Source: a virus. Taken from it: a stretch of 36,270 nucleotides of DNA. Every line of letters begins with the position of its first letter. Position 1 is the stretch's first letter. Positions 7,885-34,964 of the stretch are shown here, in pieces. The translations under genes and the position numbers were made by a program. The notes beneath the pieces were generated by a model. It was not told the origin of the DNA and did no database searches. It saw only the letters and a list, made by a program, of their open reading frames with translations. The stretch is taken from positions 1 through 36,270 of IMG/VR virus record IMGVR_UViG_3300013104_000365; one strand, written 5' to 3'.

Positions 7885-9388
7885 CCCTGTTAAAACCAAG
7901 GCCAAACGGATTAAGTGCGAGAAAGAACATTTATTCTTTACCCGAGCATTTTTCTTACCTCGCATGGGCTTTAAATTTTCAGTCAATTGGCATCATGAAT
8001 ATATTGCCGACAAGATCGATGAGGTTATTGCTGGCAGGGTTAAGAACTTAGTTATTAACGTCCCACCTGGTAGCGGTAAGACTGAATTACTCACGAATCT
8101 AATTGCACGTGGCATAGCGCGTAATGCTCGTTCCCGTTTTCTGTATTTGTCTTTCTCACAATCACTTGTAGAGGATGTATCGGCAACGGCTCGAAACATT
8201 GTTAAGTCGGAAGATTTTCAAAACCTTTGGCCTGTAAAGATTTCGACTAGTACGGATGCTAAGTCTAGTTGGAAAACTACAGTCGATGGATATGATGCTG
8301 GTCATGTTTATTCTGCATCGATGGGTGGGCAGGTCACAGGTCGCCGTGCAGGTACATTAGCGGATGAGGGCTTTACTGGTGCAATTATTCTTGATGACCC
8401 ATTAAAGCCTGAGGATGCATTTAGCCAGACAGCTAGACGTAAAGCTAACCGTAAGATTTTAAACACGGTCAACTCGCGTAAAGCTAAATCTGACACACCA
8501 ATTATTCTGATCATGCAGCGATTGCATGTTGAGGATCCGACTAACTTTGTGATGACTGGTAACGTTCCCGGTGAATGGGAACAGATCAGTATTCCCGCAC
8601 TTATTGATGATGAATACATCAGTAAGTTGCCAGAAAAAATACAAAGCAAAATTCCACGTAATGTTGAGCGAGATGCTAAAGGCCGTCAAAGCTATTGGCC
8701 ATTGAAAGAATCTTTGCAATCTTTATTGCAGCTCGAACAAGGTGGGCAAGATAAAGACGGCGCTACGGTATCCCGTTATACGTTTGCGAGCCAATATCAG
8801 CAAGCCCCGAAAAAGCTCGGCGGTGATCTTGTTAAGGCTGAATGGTTCCCACGCTATCTAGATCTACCTGTTCTTAAGTGGCGGGCTGTATGGGCTGATA
8901 CGGCGCAGAAGGTCAAAAAGCATAATGACTTTTCGGTGTTCTTATGTGCTGGTCTTGGCTATGACAATAATCTTTACATCATTGACGTGAAGCGTGGCAA
9001 ATGGGAAGCACCTGAGCTATTGAAGGAGGCTAAAGCCTTTATCAATAAGCATAAGGATAGCAACACCAAAATCGGCAAACTGCGCTATATGGCTGTAGAA
9101 GATAAGGCGAGTGGTACTGGATTGATTCAATCTATTTCTCGGGAAACCACATTACCTATTCGTGCAATTCAACGTGATGAGGACAAGCTTTCACGGACAA
9201 TGGACGTCATTCTTTATGTTGAAGATCGGCGTGTATGGTTACCAGCAAGCGCACCATGGTTATTGAACTATATCGAAGAAATCGAAGTTCTTACCGCTGA
9301 TTGGTCACATGATCATGATGATCAGTGGGATCCGACAATTGATGCGATTAATGATTCATTAGCTAAAAAGCCAACTGTATTTGATTAG
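7862..9388 (+). CDS. terL: Terminase large subunit
   Basis: 508 residues, normal length for the family. ATPase domain: Walker A VPPGSGKT at residues 67-74, Walker B AIILDD at 174-179, with MQRLHVED at 218-225 as the coupling region. The C-terminal RNase H-like nuclease has acidic residues at D346 (VWADTAQK), E413/D414 (AVEDKASGTG) and the HDDQWDPTIDA block at 485-495. It powers genome packaging into the prohead and cuts the concatemer. The gene overlaps the small subunit and is followed eight bases later by the portal gene. No frameshift or missing motif is seen. Confidence 0.95.
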   Translation: MNSRTNIDPVKTKAKRIKCEKEHLFFTRAFFLPRMGFKFSVNWHHEYIADKIDEVIAGRVKNLVINVPPGSGKTELLTNLIARGIARNARSRFLYLSFSQSLVEDVSATARNIVKSEDFQNLWPVKISTSTDAKSSWKTTVDGYDAGHVYSASMGGQVTGRRAGTLADEGFTGAIILDDPLKPEDAFSQTARRKANRKILNTVNSRKAKSDTPIILIMQRLHVEDPTNFVMTGNVPGEWEQISIPALIDDEYISKLPEKIQSKIPRNVERDAKGRQSYWPLKESLQSLLQLEQGGQDKDGATVSRYTFASQYQQAPKKLGGDLVKAEWFPRYLDLPVLKWRAVWADTAQKVKKHNDFSVFLCAGLGYDNNLYIIDVKRGKWEAPELLKEAKAFINKHKDSNTKIGKLRYMAVEDKASGTGLIQSISRETTLPIRAIQRDEDKLSRTMDVILYVEDRRVWLPASAPWLLNYIEEIEVLTADWSHDHDDQWDPTIDAINDSLAKKPTVFD

Positions 9389-10731: not shown

Positions 10732-11488
10732 GAAAGGGCGTAAAGCTTCTAAGCCGAGAGCCGTGCACGTAAATCGCCGTGTAGAACTTTATTACACAAG
10801 GCAATTGCTATCTATATCTAAATACTGTCAGGACCAAACTAAGGAGTTAGTTATTCCTACAGTTGGCCAGAATATCGGTGATGCCTGGTTTTCGGACATG
10901 ATGACGGCGTTTAGGGAAAAGCTCACAAAATATGTTGTTGAAGTTTCCCGACCGTTAGCCACAAAAGTTGTGACTGATACCCAAAACGAAGTGGACAAGC
11001 AAATTGCAGAGCACACCAAAGCAATTATTGGTGTGGATCTAACGCCGTTTTATCGAGCTGCTGATATTCAAGATGAGGTAGATCTAAACATCACGGCAAA
11101 TGTCAGTTTGATTAAGTCTATTCCTCAGCAATACGCCTATAAGCTCGAAGTGCTAATTACCAATGCTTTGCAGACTGGCCAGACAAATGAAGATTTGGCT
11201 AAAGCAATTAAACAACTGGGTTTATCTACTGATTATCGTGTTCGTCTTATTGCTAGTGATCAGATGGGTAAGATCAATGGGCAGATCAATAAAGCCCGAC
11301 AGCTTTCAATGGGTGTGGAGACATACACATGGCAAACGGCTAAAGATGAGCGTGTGCGGCCAGACCACCAGCATAAGCAGGGCAAGACATTCAGATGGGA
11401 TTCACCGCCAGATGGAGGACATCCCGGTCAGCCTATCCGGTGTCGTTGCACAGCATTGCCCAACTATGAGGATATTTTAATTGACTAG
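10676..11488 (+). CDS. Mu F-like / SPP1 gp7-like minor head protein
   Basis: 270 residues. The last 120 residues carry the phage Mu F-like head morphogenesis domain: LIASDQMGKINGQINKARQL, YTWQTAKDERVRPDHQHKQG and the C-terminal GQPIRCRCTALPNY with conserved cysteines. The first 25 residues are very basic (QQAKKRKKGRKASKPRAVHV) and overlap the acidic portal C-terminus; the true start could be a later GTG (near VHVNRR), which would remove the long overlap. It is a minor capsid component, probably injected or needed for portal-head assembly. Confidence 0.85.
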   Translation: MTTIIQILKPHLQQAKKRKKGRKASKPRAVHVNRRVELYYTRQLLSISKYCQDQTKELVIPTVGQNIGDAWFSDMMTAFREKLTKYVVEVSRPLATKVVTDTQNEVDKQIAEHTKAIIGVDLTPFYRAADIQDEVDLNITANVSLIKSIPQQYAYKLEVLITNALQTGQTNEDLAKAIKQLGLSTDYRVRLIASDQMGKINGQINKARQLSMGVETYTWQTAKDERVRPDHQHKQGKTFRWDSPPDGGHPGQPIRCRCTALPNYEDILID

Positions 11489-11762
11489 TTCTATCGAGAA
11501 ATGCTGGAAGTGTGGGAAAGTCCATGGCTCAAATGATGGTTGTGGTTACCAGCCTTGTAGCAATACGAGACCCACACCACCAATCGTTTGCACACCTCCA
11601 ATTAAATGGGATGAAAATACAATTTCTAGCTCTGTAACACCTGAACATATTAATCAGATCCGAGAACTAACTTTGAAAAAAGTATTTTTGTCAGTTCTTT
11701 TAATCTCAATCCCTATTCTGATTTGGAAATTAGATTCAATCATCATGGCTTTTAAAGCCTAA
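11481..11762 (+). CDS. Small zinc-ribbon/TM protein, 93 aa
   Basis: Start is TTG 11481, overlapping the previous stop, with GAGG nine bases upstream. The N-terminus holds CWKCGKVHGSNDGCGYQPC, a cysteine-rich knuckle that could bind zinc. Residues about 67-85 (KVFLSVLLISIPILIWKLD) form one TM helix. Conserved cysteines facing one side of a membrane anchor suggest an adaptor, but no family is recognised. It lies between head genes and may be a moron. Confidence 0.6.
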   Translation: MTSSIEKCWKCGKVHGSNDGCGYQPCSNTRPTPPIVCTPPIKWDENTISSSVTPEHINQIRELTLKKVFLSVLLISIPILIWKLDSIIMAFKA

Positions 11763-11785
11763 TTTTAATTTGAGGATTTAAAGCC

Positions 11786-12097
11786 ATGAGACGTAAAAAG
11801 TTCTCTAAACAACGTTTTTATCGCCGTTTAGCGGCAAAGGGTTTTGTTAAAGGCGGTTATTTCAACTGGAATGGCAAGCTAGAAGTCTGGCAACTTCCTT
11901 ACTGTAACTTTCCAGATTTATCAAAGGCAGCGGGTAAAGCTGCTGAAAAGTTTAAAGATGTGGCTGAAAGTTTTAAGAAGTTTCAGGAGCCACAAAACAC
12001 GACAGCAAGCGCAAAAGTTTATGGTGTTAGCTGTATAGAAGAATTCGAAGTATGCGGCTCAGATTTAACCATGGGTATTATGAGCTTTCGCATGTGA
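11786..12097 (+). CDS. Hypothetical basic protein, 103 aa
   Basis: Begins MRRKKFSKQRFYRRLAAKGF, preceded by GAGG. A strongly basic N-terminus is followed by a helical section (DLSKAAGKAAEKFKDVAESF) and a C-terminus with two cysteines. No TM. It closes the transcript unit before a terminator and precedes the capsid protease. It could be a small internal head protein or nucleic-acid-binding protein; family unknown. Confidence 0.6.
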   Translation: MRRKKFSKQRFYRRLAAKGFVKGGYFNWNGKLEVWQLPYCNFPDLSKAAGKAAEKFKDVAESFKKFQEPQNTTASAKVYGVSCIEEFEVCGSDLTMGIMSFRM

Positions 12098-12114
12098 ACA
12101 TCTCTTTCATTCAA

Positions 12115-12135
12115 GCCACCTACGGGTGGTTTTTT
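12115..12135 (+). terminator. Rho-independent terminator
   Basis: CCACC pairs with GGTGG around TACG, followed by six T residues, fifteen bases before the DUF2213 start. Confidence 0.75.
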
Positions 12136-12149
12136 ATTGAGCTCAATTT

Positions 12150-13346
12150 ATGAAAAACATTTACCGCTTCAAGGTAGGTGACTTTGCGCCAAGTGAATCC
12201 TCACGTTCATATACACCGGAAGGTTATTTGAAATGCATAAATGTTCGCTTGGGAAAAGCACCTCAGGTACGTCAATACTATGCGTATGAGTTTCCAAATT
12301 TAGAAGGCTTTTCAGCAGATCAGACAATTAATGTCTATACATCTCCTGAAGAACTTTTTAAACCGGAAGCCATTAAAAGTTGGGATGGGGCAGATACTAC
12401 TGATTATCACCCACCCAAGAATGAAATTAATGCAGCTAATTGGAAGGACTACCACATTGGCTATTGTGAGAATGTCCGTCAAGAAGGCGAATATTTATTG
12501 GGCGATTTGCTCATTAAAGATAAGGACAGCATTGATTTAATCCAGAACAACGAGCGATTAGAAATGTCGCTGGGTTATGGAGCCACATTAGTTTTAGAGC
12601 AGGGCACGGCGCCAGATGGCACGGTGTACCAAGCAAAATTTATCAATTTTATTGGCAATCACGTAGCACTCGTTAAATACGGTCGCTGTGGTGGTGATTG
12701 CCGCATCGGTGACCAAAAGCAAACTCCACCAAAGGGGAAAACAATGGAAGTAAGTGTAAACGGTATTCGTTTTGACATTGGCGATAACAAGCCCTTGGCG
12801 GATGCATTAAAGCAGCAACAAGATCAGCTTGAAAACTTGAAGGCTGCAAAGCTTAAAGTCGGTGATAAGCAATTTTCAATCGGTGATGAACTAAACGCAG
12901 TTCAGGCGGTCGTAGATCAATTGCATACCGATAAAACCACACTTGAACAAAAAGTCGGAGATCTGGAAAAGAACCAGATGACTCCAGAAAAGCTTGAACA
13001 AGCTGCTGCGGAACGTGCTGCTGTGATTGCTGATGCTAAAGCATTGGTGCCAACGGTTAAAACCGAAGGCTGTACATGTGAGCAAATCAAGCGCGATGTA
13101 ATTGCAGCCAAAGCGGGTGATGCCTTGGTTGGGGCTGTGCTGGGTAGTGTTGCTGTAGGTGATGCAAAACCTGATCAGATCGATACAGTTTTCCGCGCCT
13201 TATCTGCTGTGAAAGGTACACACCCATCTAATCCTGTGGCCGATGCACTTAACCACCAACAAAACATTAATGCAGGTGACGGTAATCCTGCTGGCGGTGG
13301 GGATGAAAAGGCCTACAGCAAAGAAAATGCATACAAAGAAATTTAA
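12150..13346 (+). CDS. Capsid maturation protease / scaffold fusion (DUF2213)
   Basis: 398 residues. The N-terminal 180 residues fit DUF2213 head proteases: YLKCINVRLGKAPQVRQYYA, a candidate catalytic Ser140 in EMSLGYGATL and His171 in GNHVALVKYG. From about residue 200 the protein becomes a scaffold-like helical region (ADALKQQQDQLENLKAAKLK and LEQKVGDLEKNQ, coiled coil), ending in a disordered Gly/Asn-rich tail. Protease and scaffold are thus fused in one chain, as is usual for this family. It would assemble the prohead and then be degraded. The capsid decoration and major capsid genes follow. Confidence 0.82.
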   Translation: MKNIYRFKVGDFAPSESSRSYTPEGYLKCINVRLGKAPQVRQYYAYEFPNLEGFSADQTINVYTSPEELFKPEAIKSWDGADTTDYHPPKNEINAANWKDYHIGYCENVRQEGEYLLGDLLIKDKDSIDLIQNNERLEMSLGYGATLVLEQGTAPDGTVYQAKFINFIGNHVALVKYGRCGGDCRIGDQKQTPPKGKTMEVSVNGIRFDIGDNKPLADALKQQQDQLENLKAAKLKVGDKQFSIGDELNAVQAVVDQLHTDKTTLEQKVGDLEKNQMTPEKLEQAAAERAAVIADAKALVPTVKTEGCTCEQIKRDVIAAKAGDALVGAVLGSVAVGDAKPDQIDTVFRALSAVKGTHPSNPVADALNHQQNINAGDGNPAGGGDEKAYSKENAYKEI

Positions 13347-29552: not shown

Positions 29553-29942
29553 ATGGAACCAGTTTCCACTAGCGGTTTAACAGCACTTTTAAAATTTTAT
29601 GGGGTGGCAATTGTGGTGACTTTAGCAGTCGCTTTAGTTGCTGCCGTTGTATTAATGACGCGTATGCCACGCTCACCGCAGGAATGGGCCGTAGGACTCA
29701 TTTGTACGGTTGTCTCAAGTTTGGCTGGCGGCTCATTCATCATCGTGAAATGGGGCCTTCATGAATGGATTACAGATGTTTGGGGCATGATGGCACTAGG
29801 TGGATTCTTCTTTGTTTGTGGTATTCCCGGTTGGGCTTTGGTCCGGTGGACATTTAACTTTATCAACAAACAGGAAGGAAAGACGATTATTGAGGTAATC
29901 AAAGAAGTTAAGAAAGCCAGAAATGATATCGAAAACAGTTAA
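29553..29942 (+). CDS. Holin
   Basis: 129 residues with three predicted TM helices: FYGVAIVVTLAVALVAAVVL, WAVGLICTVVSSLAGGSFII, and GMMALGGFFFVCGIPGWALV. The C-terminus is charged (KEVKKARNDIENS), as in class I holins. It directly precedes the endolysin gene and would open the inner membrane at a timed point. RBS GGAGAG is good. Confidence 0.82.
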   Translation: MEPVSTSGLTALLKFYGVAIVVTLAVALVAAVVLMTRMPRSPQEWAVGLICTVVSSLAGGSFIIVKWGLHEWITDVWGMMALGGFFFVCGIPGWALVRWTFNFINKQEGKTIIEVIKEVKKARNDIENS

Positions 29943-29943
29943 T

Positions 29944-29964
29944 GCCGCCTTCGGGCGGTTTTTT
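29944..29964 (+). terminator. Hairpin between holin and endolysin
   Basis: CCGCC pairs with GGCGG around TTCG, followed by six T residues. It overlaps the holin stop region and could lower endolysin expression relative to holin. Confidence 0.7.
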
Positions 29965-29983
29965 ACATCTAAAGGAAACCGAA

Positions 29984-30529
29984 ATGAACATTGAACAATA
30001 TCTTGAAGAACTCATTAAACGCGAAGGTGGGTATGTGAATAACCCAGCAGATCGAGGGGGTGCAACTAAATACGGTATTACTGAAGCCGTAGCACGTACC
30101 AATGGCTTTAAGGGCAACATGAAAGATTTACCACTTGATGAGGCCAAAGCTATTTATAAAAAACAGTATTGGACAGCTCCACGATTTGACCAAGTGAACT
30201 CTATTAGCTCGGCAGTGGCCGAAGAGCTTTTAGATACTGGTGTAAATTGCGGTACAGGATTTGCAAAACCACTCTTACAACGTGCTTTAAACTTGCTCAA
30301 TAACCAAGGTAAGGCTGGTTTTCCCGATCTTGTGATTGATGGTGTTTATGGATCTACAACTTTGGGGGCTCTAAAAACATATTTGGCCAAACGTGGTAAA
30401 GATGGCGAGAAAGTATTAGTGCGTGTACTTAATATAATGCAAGGTCAGCGTTACATTGAAATCTGTGAGCGCAATAAAAGCCAAGAACAATTTTTCTATG
30501 GTTGGATCGCCAATCGAGTGGTGATTTAA
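29984..30529 (+). CDS. Endolysin, glycoside hydrolase family 108
   Basis: 181 residues. ATG 29984 has AAGGAAACC upstream; the longer open frame begins inside the terminator hairpin. LIKREGGYVNNPADRGGATK with catalytic Glu14, then YGITEAVAR, is the hallmark of GH108 N-acetylmuramidases. The C-terminal half (LQRALNLLNNQGK, GVYGSTTLGALKTYLAKRGK) fits the peptidoglycan-binding-like domain of the family. No signal peptide, so export depends on the holin. Confidence 0.9.
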   Translation: MNIEQYLEELIKREGGYVNNPADRGGATKYGITEAVARTNGFKGNMKDLPLDEAKAIYKKQYWTAPRFDQVNSISSAVAEELLDTGVNCGTGFAKPLLQRALNLLNNQGKAGFPDLVIDGVYGSTTLGALKTYLAKRGKDGEKVLVRVLNIMQGQRYIEICERNKSQEQFFYGWIANRVVI

Positions 30530-30847
30530 ATGACTCAAGCTGAATCTGTAACTGAGCTAACTCCTTATCTTGAGTACTGGAGCAGTGGCATCTATATGTT
30601 TAAGTGCCCTGGGTGTAAATATTTACATCCATTCCATGTGAAAGAAGGTGCACATCACAATGGCAGTATTTGGGTTTTTAACGGCGATATAAATAAGCCA
30701 ACGTTTACGCCTTCTTTACTTGTTAATGATCATTACCCATCAAGCCGATGTCATTTATTTTTGACTGAAGGAAAGATTCAATTCTTATCTGACTGTCATC
30801 ATGAGCTCGCTGGCCAAACTGTAGACATGGTGCCAATCGATGTATAA
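30530..30847 (+). CDS. DUF6527-like protein in lysis cassette
   Basis: 105 residues, starting immediately after the endolysin stop. Cys and His pairs (MFKCPGCKYLHPFHV, CHLFLTEGKIQFLSDCHHEL) suggest a metal-binding fold, and SIWVFNGDINKPTFTPSLLV is characteristic of DUF6527 proteins found beside phage endolysins. Function is unknown. It overlaps the start of a small lipoprotein gene by eight bases. Confidence 0.72.
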   Translation: MTQAESVTELTPYLEYWSSGIYMFKCPGCKYLHPFHVKEGAHHNGSIWVFNGDINKPTFTPSLLVNDHYPSSRCHLFLTEGKIQFLSDCHHELAGQTVDMVPIDV

Positions 30848-30947: not shown

Positions 30948-32090
30948 TTATTTCGAGGCCTGATCCTTTCCTGTTTTAAGAAGTTCCATTATTAAGCTTG
31001 TAGTTAATTCAGGGCTTAACTCTTTAATATTGGAACTTTCAATGTTTGGTCCAGCAAAGTACTTATCAGCTAATTGCATTTTCAGTTTAACAACTTCATC
31101 TGGTTTAAATTCCGCCATATAGTATGATAGTGCTGTAATTTCTAACCATGTTTTATCGCAATAACTTTTTATATTCAATAAACGTACTCTTTCTTTAATC
31201 AAGTAAGTTAAATAACCTGTTAATGTTATGTAGATCGAAAGATAAAAAATATAAGATCGCCAGTTGATTTCATCTTTTGTGATTGTAAAGTAACAAAATA
31301 GAGCAATCAAAGATAAGATTATAAATATAAAAATTCCATTAATTGCCCTAGATAAATGACGAATTGGTCTATCTTGTTTGTTACTAAAATTTTGATGTGC
31401 AAAAATTAATTTTTGATCTTCGATTAGTCCTATCTTTTCTCTTACACCTCTAGATAACTCAGTTAATTTTTCTACTTCATTATTGAGTTGTTGTGTTTTT
31501 TTATCATAAAGAAGATCAATAATATCTCTCTCAATTTTATCTTTTTCTTCTTTCGTGCCACTAATACTTTTCTTAAAAAAATCAAAAAATTTTAAAAGTA
31601 TTGTTTCATCATATTCATTTTTGTCTAAGTAATTTTTGATTGTACCAATACTATCAAAGGTACCATTTTTGCTCTTTATATAATCATAGACTTTTAATAA
31701 ATATTCTTTATTTTTTTTTTCATCTGTTAAATTAATATTGAAATAGTATTGGCTGAACTTAAGTGTATCTCTAATAAAATCACCAAAGTTTACGGGTGTT
31801 TTTTTATTCTGAAAGATATTATTTTTAATAGCTAATAACTTAACCTTTAGATCTTTTAAATTATTTGCTTGTTGTTCAAAATCTTCATCTGTATATAATT
31901 CCAGATAAAAAGGTGTGCTAAATGAATCCACCTTTAAATTTCCTCGAAGGTCATGCAAGGTATATGCGGTTTCATAAGGATCGGAATTCTTCTGTAAATC
32001 TAAGTATTCTTTCTTAGCTTCCATATCGTTTGTGATTTGAATTATTTCTTTAACTCTATTTTGTAAATCAATTATCTTATCTTGTGACAT
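30948..32090 (-). CDS. Coiled-coil membrane protein of unknown function
   Basis: About 380 residues. Start ATG 32090 (MSQDKIIDLQNRVKEIIQI) is preferred over an in-frame TTG at 32105, although neither has a strong RBS. The N-terminal 240 residues are charged and helical, with probable coiled coil at KIERDIIDLLYDKKTQQLNN. Two TM helices near residues 250-300 (GIFIFIILSLIALFCYFTI and YIFYLSIYITLTGYLTYLI) are joined by a short loop, with a cytoplasmic C-terminal part (YYMAEFKPDEVVKLKMQLAD). It is transcribed opposite to the late operon, has very AT-rich codons, and lies where temperate phages carry lysogenic cargo. It may be an exclusion or defence factor; nothing in the sequence proves it. No known domain recognised. 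Confidence 0.7.
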   Translation of the reverse strand: MSQDKIIDLQNRVKEIIQITNDMEAKKEYLDLQKNSDPYETAYTLHDLRGNLKVDSFSTPFYLELYTDEDFEQQANNLKDLKVKLLAIKNNIFQNKKTPVNFGDFIRDTLKFSQYYFNINLTDEKKNKEYLLKVYDYIKSKNGTFDSIGTIKNYLDKNEYDETILLKFFDFFKKSISGTKEEKDKIERDIIDLLYDKKTQQLNNEVEKLTELSRGVREKIGLIEDQKLIFAHQNFSNKQDRPIRHLSRAINGIFIFIILSLIALFCYFTITKDEINWRSYIFYLSIYITLTGYLTYLIKERVRLLNIKSYCDKTWLEITALSYYMAEFKPDEVVKLKMQLADKYFAGPNIESSNIKELSPELTTSLIMELLKTGKDQASK

Positions 32091-32173
32091 GATCTTTTTT
32101 TTCAAATAAATAGTATTTGACTAGTTTATATCTTCTTGATTCTCTAAAAAAGACAAGTCCAAATTTTTCTTTT

Positions 32174-33472
32174 TTAATTCTCAATAACTAATAATTGATC
32201 AAATCTGAAAGGATTTCTACTTAATTTATCCCTACTCATCGACCAATTTCGACCCGGCACATAACATGGTCCAACACCTAGTTTCATCTTTCCAAACTTG
32301 CTATGGATACCATCCATAGCCTTCATTAAACATTCCTTTTTCTCTATGTGTGCAAAGTCGGTTAATAGGTCATACGTGTGGCCAGACTTTGGCTCAAGAC
32401 CTGTAAGTATTACGCCACATTTTTTATATTTGATACCTTCTTTATAAATTTCATCAATCATGCGTACTGCAGCTTTTACAAAATCAGTAGCACAATCCGT
32501 GGGTTCAGAGAACGAACCCGTGATTGATTTATTATAATAAGGGGCACTTTCATCAAATGGACTTGATTGTACAAACACTAGGAGACAGCCACAAAGCGAC
32601 TCCTCATCACGCAAACGTTTGCAAGCTTCTTGTGCATGCATGGCTATTGCTTCTTTCAAATCAGAGAGTTCAGTAACTTTTGTACCAAATGAACAAGATT
32701 TTATTATTTGCTTTTTTGATGGTGGGGTATCTTCAATTTCAATGCATGAGATGCCCTGCAATTCATTAATCGTTCTCGACATAACGATAGAAAATTGCCG
32801 CTGCATTTCGCGTGCTTCAGTACATGCTAAATCTAAAACAGTCTTAACTCCCATACCATGTAGTTTTTTTGCGTGCTTACGCCCAACTCCCCAAACCTCA
32901 CTAACATCGATTTGAGCGAAATAATATTCTTTGTTGCACGGATCCATGGACACCAGATCGCACACACTGTTAAAGCCAGGATTCTTTTTAGCAATGTGAT
33001 TAGCAATCTTAGATTCTGTCTTACTTCTGCCGATTCCAACACATACTGGTAAACCAAGCCATTTCCATATTTGCTGCCGCATTTGTTGCCCGACCTTTTC
33101 AAGATCGAAATTCTTTTCATAAGCAGAAAAATCAACAAAGCACTCATCAATAGAGTACGGCTCAACTTCTTCATCTGTTACGTATGAACCAAGGATCGTA
33201 TGAAAACGTCTGGACATTTCTGCATACATTGCATAGTTGCTTGAAAGTACGATTACATTATGCTGCTGAACAATATCTGTAATTTGAAATAAAGGTACTC
33301 CCATCTTTATATTTAAATTTTTTGCTTCATTGCTGCGTGCTACGGCGCACCCATCGTTGTTACTAAGAACAATGACTGGCTTATTGTTTAGACTAGGATC
33401 AAAGACTCTCTCACATGAAACGTACATGTTATTGACGTCAATCAAGAAAAAGACTTTATTCTCATGTTTCAT
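32174..33472 (-). CDS. umuC: DNA polymerase V catalytic subunit UmuC
   Basis: 432 residues, close to the usual UmuC length. Y-family polymerase palm residues are visible: [18 protein letters not shown] with Asp12, and [10 protein letters not shown] with Asp109 and Glu110. Helix-hairpin-helix [20 protein letters not shown]. The C-terminal little finger follows ([15 protein letters not shown]). It extends DNA opposite lesions when activated by UmuD'. It overlaps umuD by four bases (ATGA), so both form one operon under an SOS-type operator. All catalytic residues are present, so activity is expected. Confidence 0.95.
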
Positions 33473-33963
33473 GATTTTCTTATCATTTTAATGATGCAGG
33501 TGACAACGCCCCAGATAATTAGTTCTTGGCCATCCAATAGATAAATATTTTTATAGTCCGGATTTTCTGCTTTTAGCCATTGTCCTTTTTCATCAATCAT
33601 TAAACGCTTTACTGTGAAATCATTATCGATTAGTGCCACGACAATATCGCCGTGTTTTGCATTAAGGCTACGATCGACAATGAGCTCGTCATCAATATCG
33701 ATACCAGCGTTGAGCATCGATAGCGAAGCAACTTTGACAATAAATGTTGCGGTTTCATTTTTTATTAGGTGCTCGTTCATATCGAGCGCTTTATCTACAT
33801 AATCTTGTGCTGGGCTGGGGAAGCCTGCAGAAATCTTTTCTAAAGCATAAGGGACAAGCATATGAGTTGAGGGTACAACTAGCTTAATAGATATAACATC
33901 AGATAAAACAGCACCTTGTAAATACGGCTTTATCTGGATAATGGATGGTGCAATTTCGCTCAT
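33469..33963 (-). CDS. umuD: UmuD-like S24 peptidase, polymerase V accessory subunit
   Basis: 164 residues. Self-cleavage is expected at Ala46-Gly47 in [13 protein letters not shown]. The catalytic pair is Ser82 (ASLSMLNAG) and Lys119 (DFTVKR), 37 residues apart as in E. coli UmuD (S60/K97). The N-terminal arm before the cleavage site is about 46 residues, longer than the 24 of E. coli UmuD but without a helix-turn-helix, so it is not a UmuDAb-type repressor. RBS AGGGG is well placed. After RecA-stimulated cleavage UmuD' joins UmuC. Confidence 0.93.
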
Positions 33964-33977
33964 AGCATTCCCCTAAC

Positions 33978-33998
33978 TTGATTTTGTTACATAATCAA
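33978..33998. promoter_or_regulatory. SOS-type operator upstream of umuD
   Basis: A 21-bp imperfect palindrome, TTGATT at one end and AATCAA at the other with GTTACAT in the centre, lies 15 bases before umuD. The TTGA-N13-TCAA layout with ATGTAAC on the coding strand agrees with the operator bound by UmuDAb/DdrR in Acinetobacter. It covers the predicted transcription start. Confidence 0.75.
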
Positions 33999-34550: not shown

Positions 34551-34964
34551 ATGAGAATTTTTTCATATTTATTTATCATAACGGCAGCAATTATATTTTA
34601 TTTTAGTATAAAATTTGGTTTTGATTTAAAGACTGCAATTTATACTTTAATTTATATAATAATCTGGACGATAAGCGCTTATTTTTTATATAGATTCTAT
34701 GTAGATACTGACTATTCTAAAATCTGGTTCTATCTGATCTTTGGTATATTTCTTAGCTTCTGTTTTTATCCATTATTGGAATTTTATTCATTAAAACCAG
34801 AAGGTTATGATATTTTGGATTGGGCTGGTTTGCGAGAGAAGAATTACAGACTTGGCTTTCAACAACAACTTTGGTTCGGAATTTGGTACGGCAAGCTTGC
34901 AATCACAGCTTTATTTGCAGCTATTGCGGTAGTGATTCAACAATTATTTGATACCGATTATTGA
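34551..34964 (+). CDS. Four-TM membrane protein, unknown
   Basis: 137 residues. Four hydrophobic segments: LFIITAAIIFYFSIKFGF, AIYTLIYIIIWTISAYFLY, IWFYLIFGIFLSFCFYPL and LAITALFAAIAVVIQQLF. A hydrophilic loop between helices 3 and 4 contains YDILDWAGLREKNYRLGFQQ. RBS AGGAAA lies about 12 bases before ATG. The coding sequence is AT-rich like the cargo region. It is convergent with the SRAP gene, and both share a perfect inverted repeat as terminator. A lysogen-expressed exclusion or surface-change role is possible but unproved. Confidence 0.7.
   Translation: MRIFSYLFIITAAIIFYFSIKFGFDLKTAIYTLIYIIIWTISAYFLYRFYVDTDYSKIWFYLIFGIFLSFCFYPLLEFYSLKPEGYDILDWAGLREKNYRLGFQQQLWFGIWYGKLAITALFAAIAVVIQQLFDTDY

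Follow-up and report, generated by a model that had tools for sequence, protein, structure and literature searches.

An Acinetobacter-centred family of membrane proteins, carried as phage cargo behind umuDC and possibly used in phage conflict

An intact gene for a 380-aa membrane protein, P0001, was found as prophage cargo of an Acinetobacter temperate phage, and comparison with its relatives indicated that P0001 is one allele of a large, undescribed, Acinetobacter-centred membrane-protein family. We tentatively propose that this family is located in the inner membrane and is used in conflict between phages, by exclusion or abortive infection. The window (the whole stretch of DNA analyzed; 36,270 nucleotides) is an IMG/VR virus record (IMGVR_UViG_3300013104_000365), whose genes match those of Acinetobacter temperate siphophages.

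A sequence-only reading of the same DNA had described an AT-rich, minus-strand gene between lysis genes and umuDC, and this was confirmed by the coordinates, the gene order (Table 1), and the GC content: 26.6% for the P0001 gene and 39.1% for the whole window. A second possible start was an in-frame TTG at 32105, upstream of the ATG. The open frame consisted of 390 codons, far longer than expected by chance: 2000 simulations of the slot under a dinucleotide model gave at most 184. On the downstream side of the gene, a small lipoprotein ORF ended 9 nt before the P0001 stop. This 32-aa ORF (MYKALLLCILLSGCTAHTINSNVSIGICVKAI), the motif of which was also found close to the endolysin in 34 of the 100 loci fetched, is a candidate for a tiny, o-spanin-like lysis lipoprotein. 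A gene for a 137-aa membrane protein (34551-34964, plus strand), divergent from umuD and in an AT-rich stretch, may be further cargo.

Table 1. Positions of P0001, its predicted parts, its neighbors, and the recurrent 3-TM protein (positions in the window, or in the locus named)
Feature	Position	Strand	Remarks
P0001, 380-aa membrane protein gene	30948..32090	-	ATG at 32090; stop ends at 30948
N-terminal helical region, residues 1-177	31560..32090	-	most divergent part of the family
Long helical linker into TM1, residues 178-250	31341..31559	-	predicted structure, alignment
Predicted TM helix 1, residues 251-272	31275..31340	-	hydropathy and modelled helix
Predicted TM helix 2, residues 281-299	31194..31250	-	weaker hydropathy; alignments
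Post-TM cytoplasmic helices (predicted) and family motif, residues 300-347	31050..31193	-	most conserved part
Variable C-terminal tail with short end helix, residues 348-380	30951..31049	-	model, alignment
129-aa membrane protein, likely holin	29553-29942		precedes endolysin
Endolysin	29942-30529	+	convergent with P0001, on its downstream side
105-aa gene	30530-30847	+	between endolysin and small lipoprotein ORF
Small lipoprotein ORF, 32 aa	30840-30938	+	lipobox LLSGC; overlaps end of 105-aa gene
umuC	32174-33472	-	directly upstream of P0001, 83-nt gap
umuD	33469-33963	-	upstream of umuC
UmuDAb operator match	33978..33998		just upstream of umuD; perfect TTGA(N4)GTWAC(N4)TCAA
3-TM cl6 protein, L119	8726-9415
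3-TM cl6 protein, L158	6244-6987
3-TM cl6 protein, L160	8844-9539
3-TM cl6 protein, L166	6056-6757
3-TM cl6 protein, L170	6113-6877
3-TM cl6 protein, L185	5680-6393
3-TM cl6 protein, L190	5418-6131
3-TM cl6 protein, L116	8897-9601

No credible match to P0001 was obtained in Pfam, PHROGs, NCBIfam, or PADLOC, in agreement with the earlier impression that no known family is visible. In PADLOC-DB v2 (2023), P0001 had no match at E 10 and ten relatives gave nothing convincing; a Pfam scan to E 10 returned three chance matches, none of them SLATT. There was also no relative of P0001 in the named phage and plasmid collections, no match to the membrane module in a PDB sequence search, and, among openly readable papers (preprints aside), no description of the family. 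The sensitive profile and structure searches called for by the sequence-only reading likewise gave no family match: the fold searches retrieved nothing beyond generic long-helix folds (PI3K iSH2, microtubule inner proteins, and IpaB) at Z of about 9-10, an arrangement common among helical proteins, so that a missing better match shows nothing. DUF2207_C was considered and rejected; 14 of 35 members matched it below its cut-off (best E-value, 3e-4), probably owing to composition or topology.

A single-protein search of genome and viral contigs with P0001 found no direct relative, and the family was reached through loci sharing the neighboring endolysin, one of which (L040) contained a distant relative in the same slot, and subsequently by a profile of the membrane module. 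Acinetobacter genomes gave more relatives, with pairwise E-values down to 2e-16, and the TM hairpin and the post-TM motif were common to all relatives found. The module profile detected members in 47 of 173 Acinetobacter species genomes, 30 of 249 genomes of a family-level sample, and none of 369 genomes sampled across Gammaproteobacteria, an empty result that depends on the sample. A chromosomal relative (L111) weakly matched two Vibrio phages, so that the family cannot be called exclusive to Acinetobacter. Nearly all matches were open frames; stops within the matched region occurred in two of about 60, and a few others were truncated or split by insertion sequences, as in a chromosomal member interrupted by an IS30-like transposase gene (L175, 6903-9009). 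Neither a match to a housekeeping family nor general decay in relatives, both named among the outcomes that would count against the earlier reading, was observed. Of its view that P0001 is a strong candidate for an undescribed function, the undescribed status was retained, while the distribution indicated that this is not a lone gene.

P0001 is predicted to have a cytoplasmic N-terminal part, a TM hairpin placed in the membrane, and a cytoplasmic tail. The first TM helix was strong (Kyte-Doolittle values up to 2.67); the second was weaker, with no 19-residue window above 1.6, yet it was aligned and conserved across relatives. The loop between them is short, and the K/R-rich flanks on either side of the hairpin predicted an N-in/C-in orientation. 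AlphaFold2, run with nine same-slot relatives, gave an all-helical model (mean pLDDT, 71.5; pTM, 0.39), and the C-terminal 203 residues (the module) alone gave a pLDDT of 73.7 and a pTM of 0.52; the confident part comprised the hairpin and the post-TM helices, while the overall fold model was of low confidence. The post-TM motif of the family was LE[LI].AL..YM..L......L...LA.KYF.G; conserved residues of this part include, in P0001, the Glu E317 and the Phe F345. No heptad (3.5) periodicity was detected in residues 178-250 by a simple periodicity test, and "coiled coil" in the earlier description should, therefore, read "long helices"; the remainder of that description (long N-terminal helices, TM hairpin, and tail) was sustained.

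The region between the endolysin and umuC is a hypervariable accessory slot: its length ranged from 298 to 4277 bp among 31 relatives in which both flanks were readable, and this variation, together with the varied occupants, bore out the assignment of P0001 to a cargo slot. Family members were found in this slot in L040, L070, L198, L199, L200, L201/L202, L203, and L204, and L208 carried a further close member; the same-slot member usually followed umuC directly, in the same orientation and 28-83 nt away. The slot was also occupied by, among others, a recurrent 2TM family, a PAAR-motif gene, and genes encoding FRG, HNH, ResIII/HA helicase, and NucC-like DUF6602 proteins. The NucC-like/DUF6602 nuclease-type protein (L056, 3323-4468) had no evident cyclase adjoining, and the PAAR-motif protein was accompanied by a lipoprotein gene (L081, 9387-10229; L099, 9738-10577), cargo of the type VI secretion type; the slot is, therefore, not defence-only. 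One prophage (L115) carried two members from different branches on either side of umuDC (8173-9321 and 11302-12450). In L204 (618-998), umuDC was deleted, the start of an SRAP-like gene being fused in frame to the end of umuC, and the family member behind it was intact.

Divergence among nine same-slot alleles was distributed unevenly along the protein. The mean pairwise identity was 18.4% for residues 1-177, 24% for residues 178-250, 35% for the hairpin, 46.2% for post-TM residues 306-347, and 21% for the tail; the difference between the N-terminus (18%) and the post-TM part (46%) is as expected if a fixed output part were combined with a variable input part. In the tree, the end branches of which are long, leaving its details unsure, the umu-slot members and two chromosomal ones formed one group, with P0001 beside the L198 member, and prophage (P2) and chromosomal members were interleaved elsewhere, a pattern that requires the P2 label to change no fewer than 11 times on starred branches.

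Copies also occupied P2-like prophage slots. Among 56 loci, 26 were in prophage contexts (two or more phage-marker clusters), 11 at the queA/glnE spot, 6 at the serA spot, and 2 by metG. The phage-marker loci and the interleaving of P2 and chromosomal members suggested that the family is mobile. Neighbors at these other loci, chosen by eye, included AbiLi/AbiLii, a ThsB-type TIR with PDC-S60, a SIR2/pAgo-N-like protein, PDC-S20 (KAP-like), a PtuA/AriA-like ATPase, a caspase, and an HsdM/type I methyltransferase, of which several PADLOC ATPase matches were generic; many copies were single genes without a defence neighbor. A recurrent protein of ~235 aa with about three TM helices and no Pfam family (cluster cl6; alignment A11; Table 1) was present at 11 loci and adjacent to the family member in 7; it is a possible partner of family members, and is absent from the window.

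Since defence-type genes adjoin the family and it is present in several prophage slots, a role in phage conflict is suggested. Genes of known defence types occupy the same hypervariable prophage slot as the family, as expected of anti-phage cargo, and anti-phage systems have been proven to come from P2-like prophage hotspots in Escherichia coli, where TM proteins are taken to be suicide effectors (PMC9122126). In the mechanism that we propose, the fast-diverging cytoplasmic N-terminus would recognize damage or the infection of the cell by another phage, the latter through a component or a consequence of that infection; the signal would pass through the long helix to the conserved hairpin and post-TM helices; and the hairpin module would oligomerize and disturb the inner membrane, leading to abortive infection, or block superinfection in some other way. 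We infer sensing, oligomerization, membrane disruption, and anti-phage activity alike from these features. In classical superinfection exclusion, on the other hand, a constitutive inner-membrane protein would block DNA entry or assembly of related phages with neither sensing nor killing. The predicted membrane location, the single prophage-borne gene, and the allelic diversity within one slot are consistent with this mode of action, whereas most of the protein is predicted to be cytoplasmic with only a short loop outside, and chromosomal copies are kept away from prophages (at the queA/glnE and serA spots); we consider it rather unlikely.

The operator upstream of umuD (TTGATTATGTAACAAAATCAA) matched perfectly the TTGA(N4)GTWAC(N4)TCAA sequence reported for the UmuDAb operator of A. 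baumannii (PMC11332147); 0.06 matches were expected by chance with one mismatch allowed. It was also present in five of eight same-slot relatives examined, and two of the remaining three were truncated near umuD. Because P0001 lies downstream on the same strand, induction by DNA damage is plausible if umuD, umuC, and P0001 share a transcript, and P0001 may be damage-induced rather than lysogenically expressed. In the proposed mechanism, expression may rise on DNA damage, as P0001 lies downstream of the umuDC operon and its operator. The same arrangement, in the window and most same-slot relatives, fits an alternative in which P0001 is the third gene of an SOS-like phage umuDC operon and arrests growth or alters the membrane while the prophage is being induced or mutagenic repair is under way; the umuDC of prophage CP5 in strain ATCC 17978 is, moreover, under UmuDAb/RecA control (PMC3978071). 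However, about 45 family loci outside the slot have no adjoining umuDC, and unrelated cargo takes the same position behind umuC in other phages, so that the position of P0001 may only reflect the insertion site. In CP5, an IS903 transposase lies behind umuC, and nearly all prophage genes were induced in RNA-seq (PMC3978071), so that these data are not decisive on the operon. A dedicated damage module is regarded as quite unlikely.

The subgroup at the serA spot (5 rows, one clade) appeared to be maintained by vertical descent, and may have a housekeeping role at that spot. This subgroup, the PAAR-motif cargo in the slot, and the recurrent 3-TM partner near some copies are in line with a lysogenic-conversion function of another kind, concerned with stress, the envelope, or host fitness rather than with phages; the neighbor content and the several prophage slots point instead to phage conflict, and such a function is improbable to a similar degree as the damage module. 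An extra holin, antiholin, or lysis regulator, suggested by the TM hairpin and the nearby endolysin, is highly improbable because P0001 is on the strand opposite the lysis genes, a likely holin already precedes the endolysin, the cytoplasmic part is large, members also occur where no lysis gene is nearby, and P0001 had no PHROG lysis match (one relative had a weak match, E 0.26).

Among the closest known systems is SLATT, the SMODS/SLOG-associating 2TM effector (Pfam SLATT_1..6), which P0001 resembles in topology: both have two TM helices, long cytoplasmic helices, and a conserved post-TM glutamate. A TM hairpin followed by cytoplasmic helices, present in P0001 by hydropathy and AlphaFold2, is nevertheless a layout common to many unrelated proteins. 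P0001 differs in having its effector part at the C-terminus, preceded by a large and variable N-terminal part, and the partners of SLATT (nucleotide synthetase, SLOG, TIR, or reverse transcriptase) are not beside it, the neighbors in the window being umuC and lysis genes. Two weak viral fold matches (ranks 7 and 18) carry the SLATT name. SLATT membership was not supported: in addition to the negative Pfam result, hhalign gave profile-profile probabilities of 2-8% against the SLATT_1 and SLATT_3 sets and 4-5% for unrelated membrane controls. P0001 may work like a 2TM effector, yet is not filed as SLATT. The cargo of E. coli P2/P4 hotspots (PMC9122126) similarly consists of accessory genes, including TM proteins, mixed with defence genes in a fixed hypervariable slot; the phages and the host genus are different, and an anti-phage effect is proven there and suggested here. 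The 2TM "YLFNDW" proteins (alignment A10) are also recurrent membrane proteins of the P0001 slot, but their hairpin is N-terminal, and no profile relation was detected (4%). The distant chromosomal member L111 matched phrog_29215, of unknown function, at E 2e-7, while P0001 itself did not; thus, one branch of the family is already a function-unknown phage family. The P0001 family is new and undescribed, whereas its functional kind is known: prophage cargo, with a probable role in phage conflict. A broader reading, which is speculative and rather unlikely, is that these proteins are modular membrane immune receptor-effectors, Acinetobacter-centred and with prophage and chromosomal alleles, in which fast-diverging cytoplasmic sensors are set on one conserved 2TM output unrelated to SLATT; in the present phage lineage, the protein would be wired to the UmuDAb/DdrR DNA-damage switch, and damage or induction would arm the lysogen against competitors.

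Many single genes of unknown function are found in the accessory slots of Acinetobacter, both in prophages and on chromosomes, and this family, present in roughly one in four of the species genomes sampled, mostly intact and at several fixed insertion spots, has had no curated family model. The approximately 10 same-slot alleles provide a defined series for mapping what the variable part recognizes, and the UmuDAb operator offers a testable link between the unusual DNA-damage response of Acinetobacter and phage cargo. Should the family prove to be defensive, it would be relevant to phage resistance in Acinetobacter, clinical species included.
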